Assembly (NCBI GenBank): GCA_002431305.1
Contig: DJEG01000121.1
Location: forward strand, 11,106 to 28,375
DNA length: 17,270 bases
From: Ruminococcaceae bacterium UBA5904
GTDB lineage: Bacteria > Bacillota > Clostridia > Oscillospirales > Acutalibacteraceae
Direction: 5' to 3'
Shown here: one piece after another, positions 7,068-16,991 of the stretch
Layout of the letters: each line of letters starts with the position of its first letter
Numbering within the stretch: the first letter of the stretch is position 1
Notes under the pieces: generated by a model
Databases searched by the model: none
Told to the model about the DNA's origin: nothing
The model's input: only the letters and a program-made list of their open reading frames with translations
Translations under genes and position numbers: made by a program

Positions 7068-7778
7068 TTATTTTTTTCTGTTTTTAAGTCTCTTATCGCA
7101 TCTCGTCGCAAGGTGCGTACCGACGCTCTGGAAAACCTGAACGATAACGATAAGGCATACAACTGCAAGTGCCATTACAAGATATTTATATCTGTAATAA
7201 CCGTAGTTTATCGCGATTTTACCGAGTCCGCCGCCGCCGATAATTCCGCTCATCGCCGAATATCCGAGTATCGTCGTAACAGCTATCGTCGCGTTGGAAA
7301 TAAGCGAGGGAACGCTCTCGGGAAGCATTACTTTTACAATAATCTCCCACGGCGACGCGCCCATGCTTTGCGCGGTCTCAATGATGTTGGGATTGATCTC
7401 CCTCAAACTGCTCTCTACGAGTCTTGCGATAAACGGGAACGACGCGATAACAAGAGGAACAATCGAAGCCGTGGTTCCGACAGCCGTTCCGACGATAAGA
7501 CGCGTCAGAGGAAATACAAGTATCATAAGTATAAGGAACGGAACGCTTCTCAAAAGGTTTATTATAACATTAATAACATGGAGAACGCCTTTGGGTATTT
7601 TCAAAATTTTTCCGTCCTCGCCCGCAACGAGAAGAATTCCGAGGGGCAGACCGATTATAATTGCGAATAATGTGGAAATAAGAGTTACGTAAATTGTTTC
7701 GACAATTGCAAGAGGAAACGAACTTTTGACTATCTCCATAGCCTCTAAAAACGTATCGGATTTAAAATAGTCAAACAT
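7068..7778 (-). CDS. metI: Methionine ABC transporter permease MetI
   Basis: A 236-residue membrane protein with about five hydrophobic spans (roughly residues 22-50, 66-90, 98-115, 160-180, 198-218). The EAA loop that docks on the ATPase reads ETAQSMGASPWEIIVKVMLP (134-153), and GYSAMSGIIGGGGLG (172-186) is a strong MetI signature. It starts 1 nt after the metN stop, so the two are almost certainly translated together. It forms the membrane channel for methionine uptake with MetN and MetQ. Length is in the normal range for the family. Confidence 0.95.
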   Translation of the reverse strand: MFDYFKSDTFLEAMEIVKSSFPLAIVETIYVTLISTLFAIIIGLPLGILLVAGEDGKILKIPKGVLHVINVIINLLRSVPFLILMILVFPLTRLIVGTAVGTTASIVPLVIASFPFIARLVESSLREINPNIIETAQSMGASPWEIIVKVMLPESVPSLISNATIAVTTILGYSAMSGIIGGGGLGKIAINYGYYRYKYLVMALAVVCLIVIVQVFQSVGTHLATRCDKRLKNRKK

Positions 7779-7779
7779 G

Positions 7780-8784
7780 TCAATTCGCCTCCTGTACCGT
7801 AATACCCGGCATTTTCTTTAAATATTCCATGGCCTTGTTCATTTCGTCTCTGCCTCCGGGGATGCCGAGCATCATGTTTCCGTATGCCTTGGAGCCTATG
7901 CTCTTAGTCGAAGCGTAGAGAATACTCGCCGCTACGTTTATATCAATAGCCATCTGCGCTATAAGGGGCGTATTCGTAGCCTCCGCCCCGTTGAATACAA
8001 CTCTGATAACGCCCGTGCCGTCCGTTGACTGTAATACATCCGAATCAAAGCCCTCGGGGTAAACAAGACTCTTGGCGGCTTTCGATTTGGGAGAAGAGAA
8101 CACCTCGCTTACGTCGCCGATTTCGGCAACCTCGCCGTGGTCGAGAATCGCAACCTTTGTGCATATCTGCTCGACAACGCTCATCTGGTGCGTTATAACT
8201 ATAACGGTAAGTCCTAGCTTATCGTGAAGATCCCTGATAAGAGAGAGAATAGACTGCGTTGTCTGCGGGTCGAGCGCACTCGTAGCCTCGTCGCAGAGAA
8301 GAATTTTAGGATGCGTCGCAAGCGCGCGGGCAATCGCAACTCTCTGCTGCTGACCGCCTGACAGCTGAGCGGGATAACTTTTAAGTTTATCGCCCAGTCC
8401 TACTATATCGAGAAGTTCGGCGGCTCTCTTCTGCGCCTCCGCCTTTTTAACTCCCGCGAGTTCGAGAGGAAAACATACGTTTTTAAGGCAGTTTCTCTGC
8501 ATAAGCAGATTAAAGCCCTGGAATATCATTGTAATTTCACGTCGGGCGCTGCGAAGTTCTTTCGGCGAAAGCGTGCTCATATCCACTCCGTCGATAAAAA
8601 TCGACCCCTCGGTCGGTCTTTCGAGCATATTGATACATCTTACGAGAGTGCTTTTGCCCGCGCCGGACATACCGATAATACCGTAAATATCGCCGTCATT
8701 TATCGTTAGGTTGATATTTTTAAGCGCTTCGACCTGTCCGTCGGATACGGAGAATGTTTTTGATAAGTTTTTAATTTCAATCAT
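7780..8784 (-). CDS. metN: Methionine ABC transporter ATP-binding protein MetN
   Basis: A 334-residue ATPase with all motifs: Walker A GMSGAGKST (38-46), Q-loop Gln89, signature LSGGQQQ (141-147), Walker B ILLCDE (161-166), H-loop His199. From about residue 258 a NIL-type domain follows (GVIRVVFNGAEATNTPLI onward), the methionine-sensing C2 domain used for trans-inhibition, and it looks complete. It powers the MetNI importer. It lies downstream of a hairpin that separates it from metQ, and 1 nt upstream of metI. Confidence 0.96.
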   Translation of the reverse strand: MIEIKNLSKTFSVSDGQVEALKNINLTINDGDIYGIIGMSGAGKSTLVRCINMLERPTEGSIFIDGVDMSTLSPKELRSARREITMIFQGFNLLMQRNCLKNVCFPLELAGVKKAEAQKRAAELLDIVGLGDKLKSYPAQLSGGQQQRVAIARALATHPKILLCDEATSALDPQTTQSILSLIRDLHDKLGLTVIVITHQMSVVEQICTKVAILDHGEVAEIGDVSEVFSSPKSKAAKSLVYPEGFDSDVLQSTDGTGVIRVVFNGAEATNTPLIAQMAIDINVAASILYASTKSIGSKAYGNMMLGIPGGRDEMNKAMEYLKKMPGITVQEAN

Positions 8785-8804
8785 AATTATAAATCCCGTC
8801 TGTC

Positions 8805-8838
8805 AAAATAACGCCGACAGTAAAGTCAGCGTTATTTT
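8805..8838 (-). terminator. Hairpin between metQ and metN (leaky terminator or mRNA stabiliser)
   Basis: Ten-base perfect arms AAAATAACGC (8805-8814) and GCGTTATTTT (8829-8838) with an inner GAC/GTC pair. On the minus strand the distal arm itself ends in TTATTTT. Such hairpins after a binding-protein gene commonly let the binding protein be made in excess of the transporter core. Partial termination and 3'-end protection are both possible. Confidence 0.65.
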
Positions 8839-8856
8839 ATCATGTTTTTTTATATT

Positions 8857-9747
8857 TTACTTGATAGCGTCAAGACTTGTCTGCTTGCCGCCGTAGAGAC
8901 CCATAGGCTCAACGTGAACCGCACAAGCGTTTACAAGGTGAGTTCCGTTTTCCTTGTTGAAGTCGTCAAGGTAAGGAATGTGCTGGAAGTAGTTTGCGTC
9001 TACCTCGCCTGACTCAACAACGTTGTTGGGCTGTACATAGTCGGTGAACTCTTTAATATCAAGGGTGATACCCTTAGCCGCGAGGATTTCCTTTGCAACT
9101 GCAAGAATCTCTGCGTGAGGAGCGGGAGAAGCCGCTACGGAAATCGTTGTGCCCTTAAGTGCATCATAATTTACGCTTGAATCGTATCCGTCTCCGGGAT
9201 TCTCGACAACGCTTACAACAGAGCCCGCATATTTTTCGGAAATAAAGTCGGCAACCTTTTTGCTCTGAAGAGCAGCTTTGAGAGCCTTAATGGAATCTTT
9301 GTTCTCATTACCCTCTTTAACTGCGAGAATGTTAACGTACTCGGAAGCGGAGTTCTCGATTGCAAGAGAATCCTTTACGGGATTAAGTCCGGCCTCGATA
9401 GCGTAGTTAGAATTGATAACCGCGTAATCAACGTCTTTTAAAACATTGGGAATCTGTGCCGCCTCAACCTCGTTGAACTTGATATTATGAGGATTCTCGG
9501 CAATATCGTTGATGGTGGCTGTTACGCCTGCGCCGTCTTTAAGTTTTATGTAGCCTTTTTCCTGGAGCAGAAGAAGAGCTCTCGCCTCGTTGGTAGCGTC
9601 GTTGGGAACGGCGATTGTTATTGACGATTTGGAAGAAGAAGCCGCCGCGTCTCCGGTGGAGGTTTCATTTCCTCCCTTAGAGGAACAGCCTGCGAATACG
9701 GCAAGTACAAGAATTACAGATAAAAGTAATGCAGCAAATTTTTTCAT
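8857..9747 (-). CDS. metQ: MetQ-type methionine-binding lipoprotein, apparently circularly permuted
   Basis: A 296-residue lipoprotein: signal peptide MKKFAALLLSVILVLAVFAG, then Cys21 and a Ser/Gly-rich linker to about residue 42. Residues 43-180 (ITIAVPNDATNEARALLLLQ, NDIAENPHN, EAAQIPNVL, DYAVINSNYAIEAGLNP, SEYVNILAV) match what is the C-terminal half of ordinary MetQ. After an 18-residue linker (181-198), residues 199-296 (VAASPAPHAEIL, FTDYVQPNNVV, DANYFQHIPYLDDFN, VHVEPMGLY, final SLDAIK) match the ordinary N-terminal half. All family landmarks are present once, but in swapped order. The chain ends exactly where ordinary MetQ continues into IAVPND. It should still bind methionine outside the membrane and feed MetNI. 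First gene of the operon; ribosome site AAAGG, about 11 nt before ATG 9747. Confidence 0.93.
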   Translation of the reverse strand: MKKFAALLLSVILVLAVFAGCSSKGGNETSTGDAAASSSKSSITIAVPNDATNEARALLLLQEKGYIKLKDGAGVTATINDIAENPHNIKFNEVEAAQIPNVLKDVDYAVINSNYAIEAGLNPVKDSLAIENSASEYVNILAVKEGNENKDSIKALKAALQSKKVADFISEKYAGSVVSVVENPGDGYDSSVNYDALKGTTISVAASPAPHAEILAVAKEILAAKGITLDIKEFTDYVQPNNVVESGEVDANYFQHIPYLDDFNKENGTHLVNACAVHVEPMGLYGGKQTSLDAIK

Positions 9748-9957: not shown

Positions 9958-9978
9958 GTTATAGGCTGAAGCTATAAC
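9958..9978. promoter_or_regulatory. LysR-type regulator box upstream of metQ
   Basis: Perfect palindrome GTTATAG-N7-CTATAAC. It contains ATAG-N7-CTAT, the T-N11-A pattern of LysR-family recognition sites, and is centred about 66 bp upstream of the predicted metQ start, the usual place for such a site. It overlaps the stop codon of the adjacent lysR-type gene. No T-run follows, so it is not a convincing terminator. Confidence 0.6.
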
Positions 9979-10892
9979 TGTATACACTTATTCAGATACG
10001 CTTCTATGTTTTCGATGTACAGTTTGCCGATTTCCGACGGTATCTGGTCGTTACGCATTATATAGCCTATCTCCATAACGCCGTCCTCGTCACTCTCAAA
10101 CGGAACCGCGACATAATCACCGCCGTTTAACTCCTCGCATATAATTCCCGAGCACAGCGTAAAACCGTTAAGTCCGATCATCAGATTAAGCATTGTTGCG
10201 CGGTCATTCGCCTTAATGGTACGGGGAAATTCCACAGTACTGAATATTTCCTCGGCAAAATAGAACGAGCTGTCCACTCCCTGCTCAAACGTAAGACACG
10301 GATAATCCTTCAGATCGTCGGCGGAAATCGACTTTTTATGAGAGAGCGGATGATCCTTCCACATGTAAACGTACGTATTGCACGCGATAAGCTTTTTAAA
10401 TTCAAGCTCGTTTGATTTTAAAATTTTCGTTATAACGCTTCTGTTAAAATTACTTAAATATATAATACCTATTTCGCTTCTTAAAGTTCTGACGTCCTCG
10501 ATAACTTCTTTCGTCTTATCCTCTCTTATCGCAAATTCGTATTTCTTCGAATCGAAATTTTTTACGGTCTCGACGAATGCCTTAACCGCGAATGAATAGT
10601 GCTGAGTCGAAACGCCGAACTTTTTTTTCAATTCGTGTCCGCCCGAATAGCGTTCCTCAAGCGACTCGTACTGATAATAAACCTGGCGCGCGTACATAAG
10701 AAATTCCTGTCCGTCGTTTGTAAGTGAAACTCCGCGCCCGCTTCTGTAAAATATCGTAATGCCGAGTTCCTTTTCAAGCTCTCTTACCGCACCGGTAAGC
10801 GACGGCTGGGTAATATACAGTTTTTCCGCCGCCTTGTTCATCGAACCTGTCTGCGCGATAACGATAGCGTAACGAATCTGCTGAATTGTCAT
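9972..10892 (-). CDS. LysR-type transcriptional regulator (sulfur amino-acid uptake, inferred)
   Basis: A 306-residue regulator. The N-terminal winged helix-turn-helix is clear: IRYAIVIAQTGSMNKAAEKLYITQPSLTGAVRELEKELG (6-44), then FYRSGRGVSLTNDGQEFL. The rest is the two-lobed effector-binding domain. It lies directly upstream of metQ on the same strand, with a LysR-type box between them, and resembles the CmbR/MtaR type that controls methionine and cysteine uptake in other Firmicutes; the effector is not readable. GGAGGG stands before ATG 10892. Its own promoter is consensus-like. Read-through from lysR into metQ is possible because no terminator separates them. Confidence 0.9.
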   Translation of the reverse strand: MTIQQIRYAIVIAQTGSMNKAAEKLYITQPSLTGAVRELEKELGITIFYRSGRGVSLTNDGQEFLMYARQVYYQYESLEERYSGGHELKKKFGVSTQHYSFAVKAFVETVKNFDSKKYEFAIREDKTKEVIEDVRTLRSEIGIIYLSNFNRSVITKILKSNELEFKKLIACNTYVYMWKDHPLSHKKSISADDLKDYPCLTFEQGVDSSFYFAEEIFSTVEFPRTIKANDRATMLNLMIGLNGFTLCSGIICEELNGGDYVAVPFESDEDGVMEIGYIMRNDQIPSEIGKLYIENIEAYLNKCIQL

Positions 10893-11594: not shown

Positions 11595-14500
11595 TTAAGC
11601 CTTTGCGGTTGATACTCCGCCGAAAAGACTCTTGAAGAAAAGCGCAATCTTCTGGAACAGAGCGACTATCATTCTCATGATTCTCGCAATGAGTGAAAGC
11701 TGTTCGCTGCCGCCGTTTCCGCCTGCATTGATAAGAGCCTGAAGATACTTCATAAAGTTATCCGTACCGAAAGCCTTAAACAAGTCGGTTATACTGAAAT
11801 CAACCTGTCTGAATCTGTCTCCGATATTATCGGCAACAGGAACGAGGAACGAGATAAGTTTAAACAGGAAGCCCATAATCTTATCGGGAAGCTCGTTGTT
11901 GTTGGCGGCTTCATTGAGGAACGTGAAGATGTTTGTAAGAAGGCTTGAATCCTCCTTGTCAAGCATACAGAACGTAATCAGGAAGTTGCTTAAATTAATT
12001 GCATTCGACTTATAGAACAGCGTCTGCATTACAAGTCTTAACGCCAATGTCAGAAGATCAGCGCCTCCCGCGGAGTTAAGGAATATAATCTGCTCATTGT
12101 TCTTCGATGTAACCTTTGTAAGAGTACCTACGCACAGCGTTGAAAGGTCGATATACGGAAGCGTTATATTAAGCTTGCCTACCGCGTAATCGGTAACCTC
12201 AACCTCAACCTGTTCCATTACAACGTTTCCGTCCTCGTCGAGGATCTGATTGCCGTCTGCGTCAAGCTTGGGCTGATCCTTCATCTCCTTGTGCGTACCG
12301 AGAACAATATTCTTATTCTCGATATCGAACGAAAGTGCCGTTCCGACGAGAGATTCTATAAGTGAGTTGATAAGCTGGTTCGCGTCAAAGTCAAGAGGTA
12401 CGGAGAGGTTGAGAGCCATTCCGCCGACCTCAACGTTCGACAGGAACTTGTTGATAAGCGGGTATGCGTCGTATACGGGCTGAAGAATATCGAGAAGAAC
12501 GTATGCGAAGTGAAGAAGGTTGTTAATCGTATCATTAAGTCCGCCGATTGTGATAAAGAACATGAGGTTCGGTATCATGTTGAGAAGTACGGATACGGGA
12601 TCCGCGAGAAGCTCCTCAACAAATGAGAACAGCGGTTTAAGGAGGTAGTAGATACAGTCGCAGTTCTGCGATGCGGCGCTCTCGCCTGCATATACTCTCG
12701 TGTAATAATCCTGATACGTAAGGAGATCGCTGTCCGCGGTAAGAGCCTCCATAAGAGGAATCCACGCATAATAGTAGCCTGCATATCCGGGGATTGTTAC
12801 AAGATCGAATATCGAAAGATTTTCGTCAAGAGCAAGGAATCTGATAATAAGCGAGAGAGGCGACGCAAGCGCACTGATCGCTCTTAAGAATATCTCACGT
12901 CCGGAATATCTCGAGGTAATCTCGGGATTGTTATAACCCCAGTCGATAGCAACGATCATATCCTCGCCGGTCTCTTCGTTGATACCGGTCTGATAGAACG
13001 TATTCTTATCATACGTATTGCCCTTTACTGTGCCGTCCTCAAGCGTCTTTCCCGCGTCGGCTCTTATATAGCCCGCAGCAAATACAGTCTTGGGATTGCC
13101 GTTTTCGTCGGTGTACTTGAACTCGTAGTCAAGAGCGTTTGCAAGAGCCTGTTTCGAATAATCGATATCAAGCGCATTATTAAACAGTGATTCAAGGTTA
13201 AGTCCGTCGATCATGCCGTAAACGAGGTCTGCAATCTTGGAAAGCATCTCGTTGTTGAACAGGAAGTCCGCGAGTTTATCCTCAAGGAATCCTGTAAGAG
13301 AATCGAGATCCTCTATCTTAAGCATTGCAAGCACATTTTCAACAAGTCCGTCAAGGTTGTTTGTTACATACTGTGCATTTTCCTTAGTCCAGTACTGGGT
13401 GTAAAGAACGCCCGAACCGAAAGTATAGTCGTCATACTTCTCGGCATATTCCATAAGCTCATCCGTCTTATAGTCTACGGGGTCGAGATAGTAAGTGTAA
13501 TTCTTACCTCTTACGATGGATTTCGTACCGTCTGAATTTTCCTGAACGGTAAGAACGCTTCCGAATTCATTCGTATAGAACAGCTCGTAAAGAGCGGCAA
13601 TAGCTTCGTCGGGATTGAGGGTAACATTATTAATGATATCCTCAAGTTTAAGTCCGTAGAAGAGGTTCTTTGTAAGAATATCGCCGAGTCCGAACGCGTC
13701 AAGGAGCGTAAGGTTAGTAGCGAAATCGTTGGTCTGCATGTCGAATGCTCTGTAGTTGAGAGCCGAGAAGAGGTAACGGAAGATGTACAGAAGAACAAGT
13801 CCGTAGGATTCCTGTCCGTCAACTGTCATCTCAATGTACTTTCTCGTATTTGCGTTCCATGTGCCGTAATCGTTGGTGATTGCGGTGTTTCTAAGAGAGG
13901 AAACCTGTCTCTCGGTACCCGTTGCCTGGAGCTTATAGTCCATAAGTACGGGAAGAGAAACCTCATTCTCCTCCATTACTGCGGAGAACACGGTATTGTA
14001 GTTAATCGTATCGGCAGGCTTTCTCGTCGTTCTGGTTAAGGTGAACGAGATATCTTCGCCGGGCTTATCCTTTGAAGTCGTTTCCTTGCCGGTCTCGGGG
14101 TCTGTGTACGTATAGTAGCTGTAATATATCTTTACCTTAGTCTTGTAAGCGTTTACAAGCTCTGTCGTCGTAAGTTCGCTTGCGTCGAGAACATTTCCTG
14201 CGTTATTCGCATACGCGATATCCTCGAGAACAGCGATATCGGTGTTGATAGAGCCGTCGGAATTAAGTCCGGTTACTTTCTCCGTATACTCCGAGTCGGG
14301 GTAAAGAGAAAGGTCGCCGTTTACGTTCTTGTACGCTTCGGTAACACCGACGGTTTCAATTGAGTTCGAAACGCATCCGTAGTTTTTAGCAGCCATTACC
14401 GCTTCATCGGTCGTCTTATAAATAGCTGTACCGCTGTAAGCTCCGCCCGCAGCGGTCTTACCGGTAGCGGTATAACCGATAATCGGATTTCCGGTCTCTG

Positions 14501-16991
14501 CGCCGAGAGATATGAGTTTGAGAACGTTATCAAGAGAGTTAAGGAAGTTGATCTTATCGCCCAAAAGATCGCCTATCTTAAGGGTGTAAACATCAACCTT
14601 AACCGCATCCGTCCACTCAATTCTGATAACCAGCTGGAATGTTTTAATCGTGGTAAGAAGAGTACCCGAAGTAAGATAATATGAAATATTCGGAAGAAGC
14701 GAAAGAACAGTCTCAACGGGGTTATCAAGAACGTCATTCTCAATCCAGTTGAAGAGAGGTCCGGTTATCAGATTTATAAACGAAGTAACGTTCGACTGCT
14801 GATAAGCGTTGACCATTATTCTCGCACTCTGCTCAAAGTCTGCCTGACTGACAAGACCGTTTGACGCATCAATTCCGAGAGTCTCAAACAGCGGAAGCAA
14901 TATGTCGTTCCAGCCTTGCGCGCCCTTAATTATAGCCCAAACTCTAGACCACATTATAGTGGTAACTTCAATCTTAAACTGCTGGTTTCCGAGAACAGCC
15001 GCAAGAAGAGGTGCGGCGCCGAGAAGAACGCCCGAAAGAGCCTCCTGGAACTTACCTCTGTCGCCGTTAACGCCCCAGTAAAGAGTATCGAAGTTAACAT
15101 CCTTCCATCTCTGACCCATATATTCGTCATTCTCTTTACCTACGGCATAGTAACCGTCATACTCAACCGCACCGCCTTTTGCAGCCTTTAACTGCTCATA
15201 TACTGTGGGATATTTCTTATCGAATCCTGTTCTTTCCATACAACGGGCGATACCCGCGGGAGTGATACCGATATCCTCCTGAATAAGGAGTTTATAAACA
15301 AGAGCCTGCCATCCGTTAGAGTCATCAACAACCCAGCCGGCAATAGTGCTTCCCGCGCTGCCGAGAGTATTTTTAATAAATGCATCGGTGATGTTCTCAT
15401 CGATAACATTTGTAAGCATGGGGTAGATGGTCTTAAGAAGAAGATTGATTATCGAATCCTGGTAAAGCATGTTATCAAGGATATTGATAACCATTTCCTT
15501 AGGCGTGCTGTAATCCTTGCCGCCGAGAAGTTCATTCTCGGGAGGCAGGAACGAATGAAGCGAACCGCCGAGCTTCTTATTAGCCATAAGAGAGTCGATT
15601 GTGTCGACTATCGTGGTAACTTTCTCTGTGGTAACGTCATATGTAACGGCGTCGCCCGTCGACTTGTCGATATAATCGCCGACAGTTCTCGAGGGAAGAT
15701 ACTTCTGCTCCATGGCGATGGGCTTTAACTGTGTTACAAGGTTAATGTAGCTGTAAGCGTCGTCGCCGTAAATCTTAATCTTTGCTTCGTTCGATATCGA
15801 ATTGAATACGTCATAGTGGGACATGATGTCCTTATACGCATTCGTCATAAGGTCTGAGTTAGTCTCGACCTGAAGTTTTGAAGCACCCTCGACATTATTG
15901 TCGGGACCGTAGTATTTTGAAAAATATTGATCAAGAGAACTCTTAAGAGAATAAAGCTCAATTCTCGATCTGTCTACGGAGTTTCTGTCTTTATCAATGG
16001 TATATCCTTTATTATAATACTGGGGTTTCGTGCCGGAATCGTCAAAGCTTCTGTCCATGCTCCACGTTACGTCGAGGTAACGGATGGTGATGGGAGAGGG
16101 CTTGATATCCTCCGTAAGGAGAACCGTATTAACATCGGTATAGCAGTAAAACTCGTAAGTATGGAACCAGTTGCCCGAGTTTACGGTCGTGCAGTTACCG
16201 CAGAAATAGTCGATAACGGTCTCAACATTAAGATAATCGAAAAGGGTTTTCTCTTCAATATCACCGTTTCTGATCTTGTCTCTGAGGTCGTCGCCGTACT
16301 CGCCGTCTCTGATTTTATCGGCAATGGACTTATCCTCGGTCTTAATCGAGGGGTCGTAGTACCATGTGCCGTCGGCCTTCTGCGCGTTATACCATGTTAT
16401 CGTACCGTCTGCGTCAATCTCGTACGTCTTGTGATCCGAAACGCCTACAAGCTCACCGAGAGCGTCGACAAAGTACGAATAGCCGTCGAAGTAAAGGAAA
16501 TTGCCGTCGCTGTCCTTCATGGTACGAAGCTTATCCTTAACGGTATCGCCGACCATCGGGATAGTGTAATTTCCTACGCCGTAGGTCGTGCTCATGATAT
16601 TGTCCGCAATTGCATAAAACTGAATCGCGGCGTTTCTGATGCTGTTGGAGCCGTCGTCGAGAGCCGTAACCTTATGGTTGTAGGCAAACGAACGAACCGT
16701 GTTCGAACTCGAGTCATTATAAACATAATCACCCTGTTTGTTTTCGACCGTATACTGATTCATGTCGCGTATGATACTTGCTTTCTTTACGCCGTTTTCA
16801 TCAGTATCAATCACTGTCTTGTTATAACCGCCGGAGGACTCTGTGTGCGTTTTGAAGAACATATAGGCAAGAGTGTTGTAACTCGAGTCTAACTGTTCGT
16901 CATCGGCAAACGAGACGAAACCGACGGACACTGCTGAAAATAAGAAAACAGTTGAAAGTAAAACACAAAGAACTTTTTTCGTTAATTTCAT
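11595..16991 (-). CDS. Giant secreted protein with duplicated helical modules, unknown function
   Basis: A 1798-residue protein. Residues 1-29 form a signal peptide (KLTKK, hydrophobic core, SFA before DD). The N-terminal 300 residues are polar and aromatic-rich with a CGNC at 264-267. Two diverged copies of a hydrophobic helical module are visible: copy A at about 500-790 (FQEALSGVLLGAAPLLAAVL 648-667; WNDILLPLFETLG 694-706; DNPVETVLSLLPNISYYLTSG 756-776) and copy B at about 1215-1500 (FLRAISALASPLSLIIRFLA 1368-1387; AWIPLMEALTAD; DPVSVLLNMIPNLMFFITIGG 1464-1484). A 910-1050 stretch is polar with Thr-Asp-rich loops. The tail (about 1765-1798) is a hydrophobic and basic helix, LFQKIALFFKSLFGG. 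I see no LPXTG, SLH, dockerin or catalytic motif. AGGAG lies 10 nt before the ATG; it has its own promoter and terminator. Function not recognised. Confidence 0.93.
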   Translation of the reverse strand: MKLTKKVLCVLLSTVFLFSAVSVGFVSFADDEQLDSSYNTLAYMFFKTHTESSGGYNKTVIDTDENGVKKASIIRDMNQYTVENKQGDYVYNDSSSNTVRSFAYNHKVTALDDGSNSIRNAAIQFYAIADNIMSTTYGVGNYTIPMVGDTVKDKLRTMKDSDGNFLYFDGYSYFVDALGELVGVSDHKTYEIDADGTITWYNAQKADGTWYYDPSIKTEDKSIADKIRDGEYGDDLRDKIRNGDIEEKTLFDYLNVETVIDYFCGNCTTVNSGNWFHTYEFYCYTDVNTVLLTEDIKPSPITIRYLDVTWSMDRSFDDSGTKPQYYNKGYTIDKDRNSVDRSRIELYSLKSSLDQYFSKYYGPDNNVEGASKLQVETNSDLMTNAYKDIMSHYDVFNSISNEAKIKIYGDDAYSYINLVTQLKPIAMEQKYLPSRTVGDYIDKSTGDAVTYDVTTEKVTTIVDTIDSLMANKKLGGSLHSFLPPENELLGGKDYSTPKEMVINILDNMLYQDSIINLLLKTIYPMLTNVIDENITDAFIKNTLGSAGSTIAGWVVDDSNGWQALVYKLLIQEDIGITPAGIARCMERTGFDKKYPTVYEQLKAAKGGAVEYDGYYAVGKENDEYMGQRWKDVNFDTLYWGVNGDRGKFQEALSGVLLGAAPLLAAVLGNQQFKIEVTTIMWSRVWAIIKGAQGWNDILLPLFETLGIDASNGLVSQADFEQSARIMVNAYQQSNVTSFINLITGPLFNWIENDVLDNPVETVLSLLPNISYYLTSGTLLTTIKTFQLVIRIEWTDAVKVDVYTLKIGDLLGDKINFLNSLDNVLKLISLGAETGNPIIGYTATGKTAAGGAYSGTAIYKTTDEAVMAAKNYGCVSNSIETVGVTEAYKNVNGDLSLYPDSEYTEKVTGLNSDGSINTDIAVLEDIAYANNAGNVLDASELTTTELVNAYKTKVKIYYSYYTYTDPETGKETTSKDKPGEDISFTLTRTTRKPADTINYNTVFSAVMEENEVSLPVLMDYKLQATGTERQVSSLRNTAITNDYGTWNANTRKYIEMTVDGQESYGLVLLYIFRYLFSALNYRAFDMQTNDFATNLTLLDAFGLGDILTKNLFYGLKLEDIINNVTLNPDEAIAALYELFYTNEFGSVLTVQENSDGTKSIVRGKNYTYYLDPVDYKTDELMEYAEKYDDYTFGSGVLYTQYWTKENAQYVTNNLDGLVENVLAMLKIEDLDSLTGFLEDKLADFLFNNEMLSKIADLVYGMIDGLNLESLFNNALDIDYSKQALANALDYEFKYTDENGNPKTVFAAGYIRADAGKTLEDGTVKGNTYDKNTFYQTGINEETGEDMIVAIDWGYNNPEITSRYSGREIFLRAISALASPLSLIIRFLALDENLSIFDLVTIPGYAGYYYAWIPLMEALTADSDLLTYQDYYTRVYAGESAASQNCDCIYYLLKPLFSFVEELLADPVSVLLNMIPNLMFFITIGGLNDTINNLLHFAYVLLDILQPVYDAYPLINKFLSNVEVGGMALNLSVPLDFDANQLINSLIESLVGTALSFDIENKNIVLGTHKEMKDQPKLDADGNQILDEDGNVVMEQVEVEVTDYAVGKLNITLPYIDLSTLCVGTLTKVTSKNNEQIIFLNSAGGADLLTLALRLVMQTLFYKSNAINLSNFLITFCMLDKEDSSLLTNIFTFLNEAANNNELPDKIMGFLFKLISFLVPVADNIGDRFRQVDFSITDLFKAFGTDNFMKYLQALINAGGNGGSEQLSLIARIMRMIVALFQKIALFFKSLFGGVSTAKA

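Follow-up and report, generated by a model that had tools for sequence, protein, structure and literature searches.

Natural circular permutation is already known among substrate-binding proteins. The lipid-anchored glucose-binding lipoprotein TpMglB-2 (Tp0684) is naturally permuted, as are relatives in many Gram-positive gut bacteria, and its authors suggest that tethering may have favored permutation (PMC4990184, available text). Glycine betaine-binding proteins are related by permutation among themselves and to molybdate-binding proteins, in pairs of <24% identity found by structure (accessible part of PMC2395249). Permutation by duplication has been reviewed with DNA methyltransferases and saposins as examples (PMC3320104, in excerpt), and ribose-binding protein, which is bilobal like MetQ, has been engineered into permuted halves, but these are man-made isolated lobes (PMC9815098, in excerpt). 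Natural circular permutants in the literature consulted are mostly remote relatives recognized by structure.

We analyzed a 17,270-nucleotide stretch of DNA from Ruminococcaceae bacterium UBA5904 (hereafter, the window) that encodes a permuted relative of the methionine-binding lipoprotein MetQ. Canonical MetQ/NLPA proteins (PF03180; PDB 4ib2, 1xs5, 4yah, and NmMetQ, 6dzx) likewise have both halves, the ligand residues, a lipoprotein signal, and associated metN/metI genes; in the permuted form of the window's lineage (the core lineage), by contrast, the halves are swapped, an extra linker is present, the anchor precedes the C half, and metQ comes first in the operon. Permuted MetQ shares with TpMglB-2 a lipid anchor, substrate binding, and natural permutation, whereas TpMglB-2 is a Type I sugar-binding protein with another cut site and a weakly conserved permuted part; repeated registers and reversions, seen in MetQ, go unreported for it in the available text of PMC4990184. 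The glycine betaine family also comprises permuted substrate-binding proteins, but in MetQ the C half retains ∼55% identity to canonical 4ib2 and several registers occur in one family. The mechanism that we propose is the one covered in the accessible part of PMC3320104, with MetQ scars sitting inside one orthologous operon. What is new is the MetQ family, the closeness of its permuted and canonical forms, and a register that changed repeatedly and apparently also reverted; permutation as such is known in binding proteins. The MetQ forms are close enough for events to be placed on a tree, with likely junction scars, orthologs in one operon, and apparent reversions, and this closeness makes two questions testable: how a gene can permute and stay functional, and what role, if any, hinge continuity or anchor position plays in binding proteins. 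The initial annotation knew of no description of a permuted MetQ, and our search of the open-access literature (without preprints) likewise found none among the papers listed.

Profile searches place the swap unambiguously. PF03180 (Lipoprotein_9) is the single Pfam family on the ORF, matched by hmmscan with 286 bits (curated cut-off, 27 bits) in two stretches that cover both halves. The best stretch, residues 42 to 179, corresponds to profile positions 97 to 234, and a six-frame search of the genome matches profile positions 1 to 97 downstream of it, at residues 199 to 295. In a phmmer search against PDB chains, the best-scoring crystal chain, 4ib2, aligns with swapped halves and 257 bits in all: query residues 199 to 295 with chain residues 10 to 106 (118.6 bits) and 44 to 178 with 111 to 249 (141.3 bits). 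Judged from these alignments, the swapped order in two stretches cannot be chance. The protein lacks the canonical N-to-C order of MetQ/NLPA and is therefore filed as a circular permutant from PF03180 rather than as an ordinary member; nor does it belong to the "Type Ic" group of TpMglB-2, PF03180 being its sole Pfam match up to E 0.1. These results bear out the proposal, made from the letters alone, of a natural circular permutation of MetQ opened at the first hinge crossing; a profile alignment could have revealed canonical order, and none does. Two details change. IAVPND had been said to follow the lipobox at once, but a spacer of about 22 residues separates it from Cys21. The 18-residue linker proposed corresponds to E182–G199; the profile ends give a longer one (Table 1). 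No other PF03180 gene was found by six-frame search of the window's genome, a 136-contig metagenome-assembled genome (MAG) that is 68% complete. NCBI MetQ models miss the permuted protein (for example, 170 bits where the cut-off is 374), at least partly because the match is split. This shortfall may explain why the order went unnoticed, and it is a warning for annotation.

Table 1. Features of the permuted metQ locus, in window coordinates
Feature	Position	Strand	Details
Permuted metQ	8857..9747	-	296 aa; signal peptide, C half, linker, N half; from translation and profile searches
Putative lipoprotein signal peptide	9685..9747	-	Residues 1-21; lipobox FAGC, Cys21; read off the translation
C half (first)	9214..9624	-	Residues 42-178; PF03180 from 97 to match end; R56, N112, N139
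Linker	9148..9213	-	S179-T200, 22 residues between profile ends; old C terminus plus old N terminus
N half (last)	8860..9147	-	Residues 201-296; PF03180 1-97; Y237, F254, H256, Y259; ends SLDAIK
metQ-metN intergenic hairpin	8785..8856	-	Predicted, -22.0 kcal/mol
metN-like ATPase with NIL domain	7780..8784	-	PF00005, PF09383; TIGR02314 362.8 bits, below cut-off 499.7
metI-like permease	7068..7778	-	PF00528; NF008049 198.2 bits, below cut-off 212
LysR-family regulator, upstream of metQ	9972..10892	-	Pfam; matches at 25 loci, of which some duplicate the window's

The binding site appears intact. We placed by motif the seven ligand residues of NmMetQ listed in the available text of PMC6739813, and all seven are present in the window protein, as the initial annotation had held for the binding landmarks. 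They are identical in 112/112 rows of the core lineage (F254 in 111) and, in the two further lineages described below, in both lineage-B rows and in 118 to 120 of 120 lineage-2 rows. An AlphaFold2 model of the window protein has pLDDT values of 86 to 98 per ten-residue block from residue 41 onward, a confident prediction, but Foldseek and VIA-align match MetQ crystals over one half only. The permuted protein would fold normally, should close on methionine like ordinary MetQ, and would dock on MetN-MetI. A ligand other than methionine is unlikely: MetN and MetI fall below the NCBI methionine-specific cut-offs, the window lacks an Rfam match such as a SAM riboswitch, and an M20 peptidase gene accompanies lineage-2 operons, but all seven methionine contacts are kept. 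With considerable confidence, we regard the gene product as a working permuted MetQ lipoprotein of the adjacent MetN-MetI, with a fixed 22-residue linker and a chain that ends at the old hinge crossing, and as one of multiple Clostridial permutations. Gut bacteria probably use this permuted protein to catch methionine.

Order, spread, conservation, tree positions, and operon context were all read from sequence. In loci L001 to L111, 93 of 111 PF03180 ORFs have the permuted order (the window gene counts twice, as L001 and L002), so that related genomes, which could have lacked it, in many cases have it. The core lineage comprises 112 distinct rows with permuted order, the window row included; one (locus L234) belongs to G822, a genome assembled as a single contig, and the records of L075 and L080 carry Oscillibacter strain names. 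The linker is exactly 22 residues long in 100/104 distinct permuted rows, the remaining four having 16, 16, 23, and 33. Cys21 is at least 90% conserved in a 52-row alignment, and dN/dS between the window metQ and L022, from the same genus, is 0.036. To look for permutation beyond the class, we compared genomes across the phylum, of which 227 of 398 match the window protein; the best E value falls below 1e-50 only in its own genome and in G475, of the same class, and among the matches listed these two alone have a single uninterrupted match, a measure that could miss divergent permutants. Separately, some canonical metQ matches lie in long frames (466–581 aa) in L017, L136, G180, G227, G553, G229, and G461, possibly fusions with importer parts.

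An assembler that wrongly joined pieces of a canonical metQ could in principle produce such an order, given that the window belongs to a fragmented MAG (68% complete) and that three-part metQ proteins of metagenome assemblies look chimeric. The shared linker length and order in 100/104 rows, the independent assemblies, including the single-contig genome and strain records, and the low dN/dS leave this explanation with almost no probability, and independent genomes refute it for the family. The three-part proteins are a different matter. These MetQ-like proteins (376–656 aa, among P0007–P0043, P0121–P0126, P0165, and P0177) comprise 20 N-C-N, 20 C-N-C, one C-C-N, and one N-C-N-C arrangement among 221 proteins. 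Their sources, like those of two more found in the lineage-2 set, are ena or lgn metagenome assemblies only, and within them canonical-like sequence on one side of the conserved IAVPND stretch meets permuted-like sequence (up to 100%) on the other. With mixed pieces and metagenome assemblies as their only source, we do not accept them as living intermediates; they may be recombinants or assembly chimeras.

A second permuted lineage lies apart from the core. Three outliers in trees of the separate halves pointed to L171, whose linker is 33 residues long and which grouped far from the core. We divided the profile into pieces (N, the N half; H, the C half minus its last helix; T, that last helix) and applied them to 122 lineage-2 sequences: the best 120 of 1943 matches to L173, plus L171 and L173 themselves. 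Among these, 107 read H-T-N, 12 read T-N-H, one has its cut within the N half, and two are three-part. The protein cut inside the N half, P0234 (N′-H-T-N″), is known as a protein only, from a 70.6-kb contig. An AlphaFold2 model of the T-N-H form, built from 12 near-identical rows, reached pLDDT 40.7 and was unusable. Lineage 2 has the same hinge cut as the core but a different linker, of 25 to 30 residues (33 in L171 by another profile) versus 22. Of 246 genomes from one family, 70 gave a match, and these added L249 (T-N-H), L252 (H-T-N), and two genes in canonical N-H-T order, L250 and L251, which Pfam reads as one stretch, 1 to 236. By eye, the lineage linker persists in L250 and L251 as a C-terminal tail. 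A further group, lineage B (L170 and L172), has a 16-residue linker; the MetN-like ATPases beside its metQ genes (L170:3024–3863 and L172:3939–4793) match PF00005 and, unlike the window MetN, lack a NIL domain.

Three metQ orders occur within one conserved lineage-2 operon. The arrangement metN-metI-metQ-M20 is found in six loci: L171 and L281 (H-T-N), L278 and L279 (N-H-T; these extend L251 and L250, respectively), and L173 and L280 (T-N-H). Peptidase_M20 was confirmed at L171 and L278; L236, also of lineage 2, deviates, with metN after metQ. Two species of one genus differ in order: between L171 and L278, metN is 86% and metI 90% identical, and metQ is 80% identical in the N part, 73% in the H-T part, and 47% in the first 36 residues. 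Genome G1236 seemingly carries both a lineage-2 H-T-N metQ (contig C2, locus L281) and a core-like permuted metQ (contig C116).

In a 66-row tree, the core, lineage 2, and lineage B each form one group with 100/100 support. After five long rows were dropped, AU tests of groups named post hoc, from trees already seen, penalized a single clade of core plus lineage 2 (dlnL 32.5, p-AU 0.012) and of all permuted rows, lineage B included (dlnL 50.4, p-AU 0.037); core plus lineage B as one clade cost little (dlnL 2.2, p-AU 0.14). The trees cover row subsets, with bootstraps not fully settled and long branches to lineage 2. In a rooted 62-row tree, L251 groups with L171 (100/100) and L250 with P0297 (96/79), both inside H-T-N; T-N-H is one nested group (90/75), and P0234 is its sister (90/83). 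Forcing both canonical-order genes to the base of the lineage was strongly rejected (dlnL 90.9, p 2.8e-6), as was forcing them into one clade (dlnL 81.8, p 3.5e-4). Together, these sequence data suggest that permutation arose more than once in Clostridia and that the lineage-2 ring was reopened, regaining canonical order twice.

A single permutation common to all permuted MetQs, with lineage 2 set apart merely by fast evolution, would account for the identical cut point in the core and lineage 2, the related LysR regulator near both, and the long branches, and the AU p-values (0.012–0.037) are moderate. We nevertheless consider it improbable, since the linkers are unlike in length (22 versus 25–30 residues) and, by eye, in sequence, the log-likelihood penalties reach 32 to 50, and metN precedes metQ in six lineage-2 loci and follows it in the core, as it also does in L236. 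Even with a single permutation, the later registers and reversions inside lineage 2 stand. Clostridial MetQ is likely a ring repeatedly reopened behind its signal peptide, with at least six independent register changes (the core, the origin of lineage 2, the last helix first, a cut within the N half, and two canonical returns) and a topology that is easily reversible; L170/L172 are possibly a seventh.

Junctions in the re-ordered genes appear to record these events. Measured from LY to the proline of the first strand of the C half, the junction spans 20 residues in 95/97 measurable canonical rows (12 were not measurable) and 26 to 32 residues in 16/16 re-ordered lineage-2 rows. By profile ends, it is four residues in 107/108 canonical rows. 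In L251 and P0234 it reads LKxxAG plus a polar spacer, resembling the H-T-N C-terminal tail LKELAG followed by a lipoprotein spacer. The extra residues of the longer junctions look like remnants of former termini, in keeping with repeated permutation by duplication; since no known relative in canonical order is basal to lineage 2, a long junction could also be ancestral there. In the core, the linker end ALKGT-TISVAAS resembles SLEGT-TIKVGA, a spacer found in canonical relatives such as L005 and L119, a likeness that is only suggestive.

Most likely, metQ was duplicated in tandem at its own locus; the copies would then have fused and the outer pieces been lost, leaving a permuted chain that may have retained the old signal peptide, now ahead of the C half. 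In lineage 2, the ring would have been opened anew at other points, twice back to canonical order. Fission and fusion, or recombination between unlike copies, is a less probable route. Recombination at IAVPND is conceivable, since canonical-like and permuted-like parts meet there in the N-C-N and C-N-C proteins, but the four loci checked (L278–L281) hold no further metQ pieces, and the junctions of old C tail plus spacer fit duplication. None of the genome rows listed shows metQ copies fused in tandem. Pseudo-symmetry of the MetQ halves was not detectable by profile comparison, so the notion that the cut is a lobe-swapped counterpart of the native N terminus is conjectural.

We take FAGC and Cys21 to be the lipobox, following the general lipobox rule. 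A simple lipobox-like motif occurs in 109/112 core rows and also in T-N-H rows, whereas 45 of 107 lineage-2 H-T-N proteins lack a cysteine ahead of their first domain. Part of lineage 2 therefore seems to be secreted rather than lipid-anchored. Lipid anchoring alone thus does not explain permutation, the tethering advantage proposed for TpMglB-2 cannot hold for MetQ in general, and anchor position is weakened as a general driver.

The window operon, metQ-metN-metI, lies entirely on the minus strand with metQ at its head and the LysR gene upstream of it. Once L236 and L170 to L172 are removed from the permuted rows, metN is downstream of metQ in 106/112 core genes, upstream in one, and without a match in five; in canonical loci it is upstream in 73 of the 77 where it was found. 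The sole core locus with metN upstream is L098, on a 3736-base contig. A hairpin of −12 kcal/mol or lower follows the core metQ in 90/111 loci, with a mean of −18.6 against −10.2 for shuffles, a contrast somewhat flattered by shuffles that kept single-base content only and were scanned in coarser steps. Riboswitch control was considered and rejected: the window has no Rfam match such as a SAM riboswitch, and 17 relatives yield one T-box leader (L080:2345–2594, minus strand, 100 bits), on the strand opposite to metQ. LysR relatives of 62 to 69% identity occur in L044, L075, L080, L278, L279, and L013, adjoining met operons of the core, of lineage 2, and of one canonical locus. Elsewhere in the window, an ORF of 1798 aa (11595–16991, minus strand) begins with a signal-peptide-like start.
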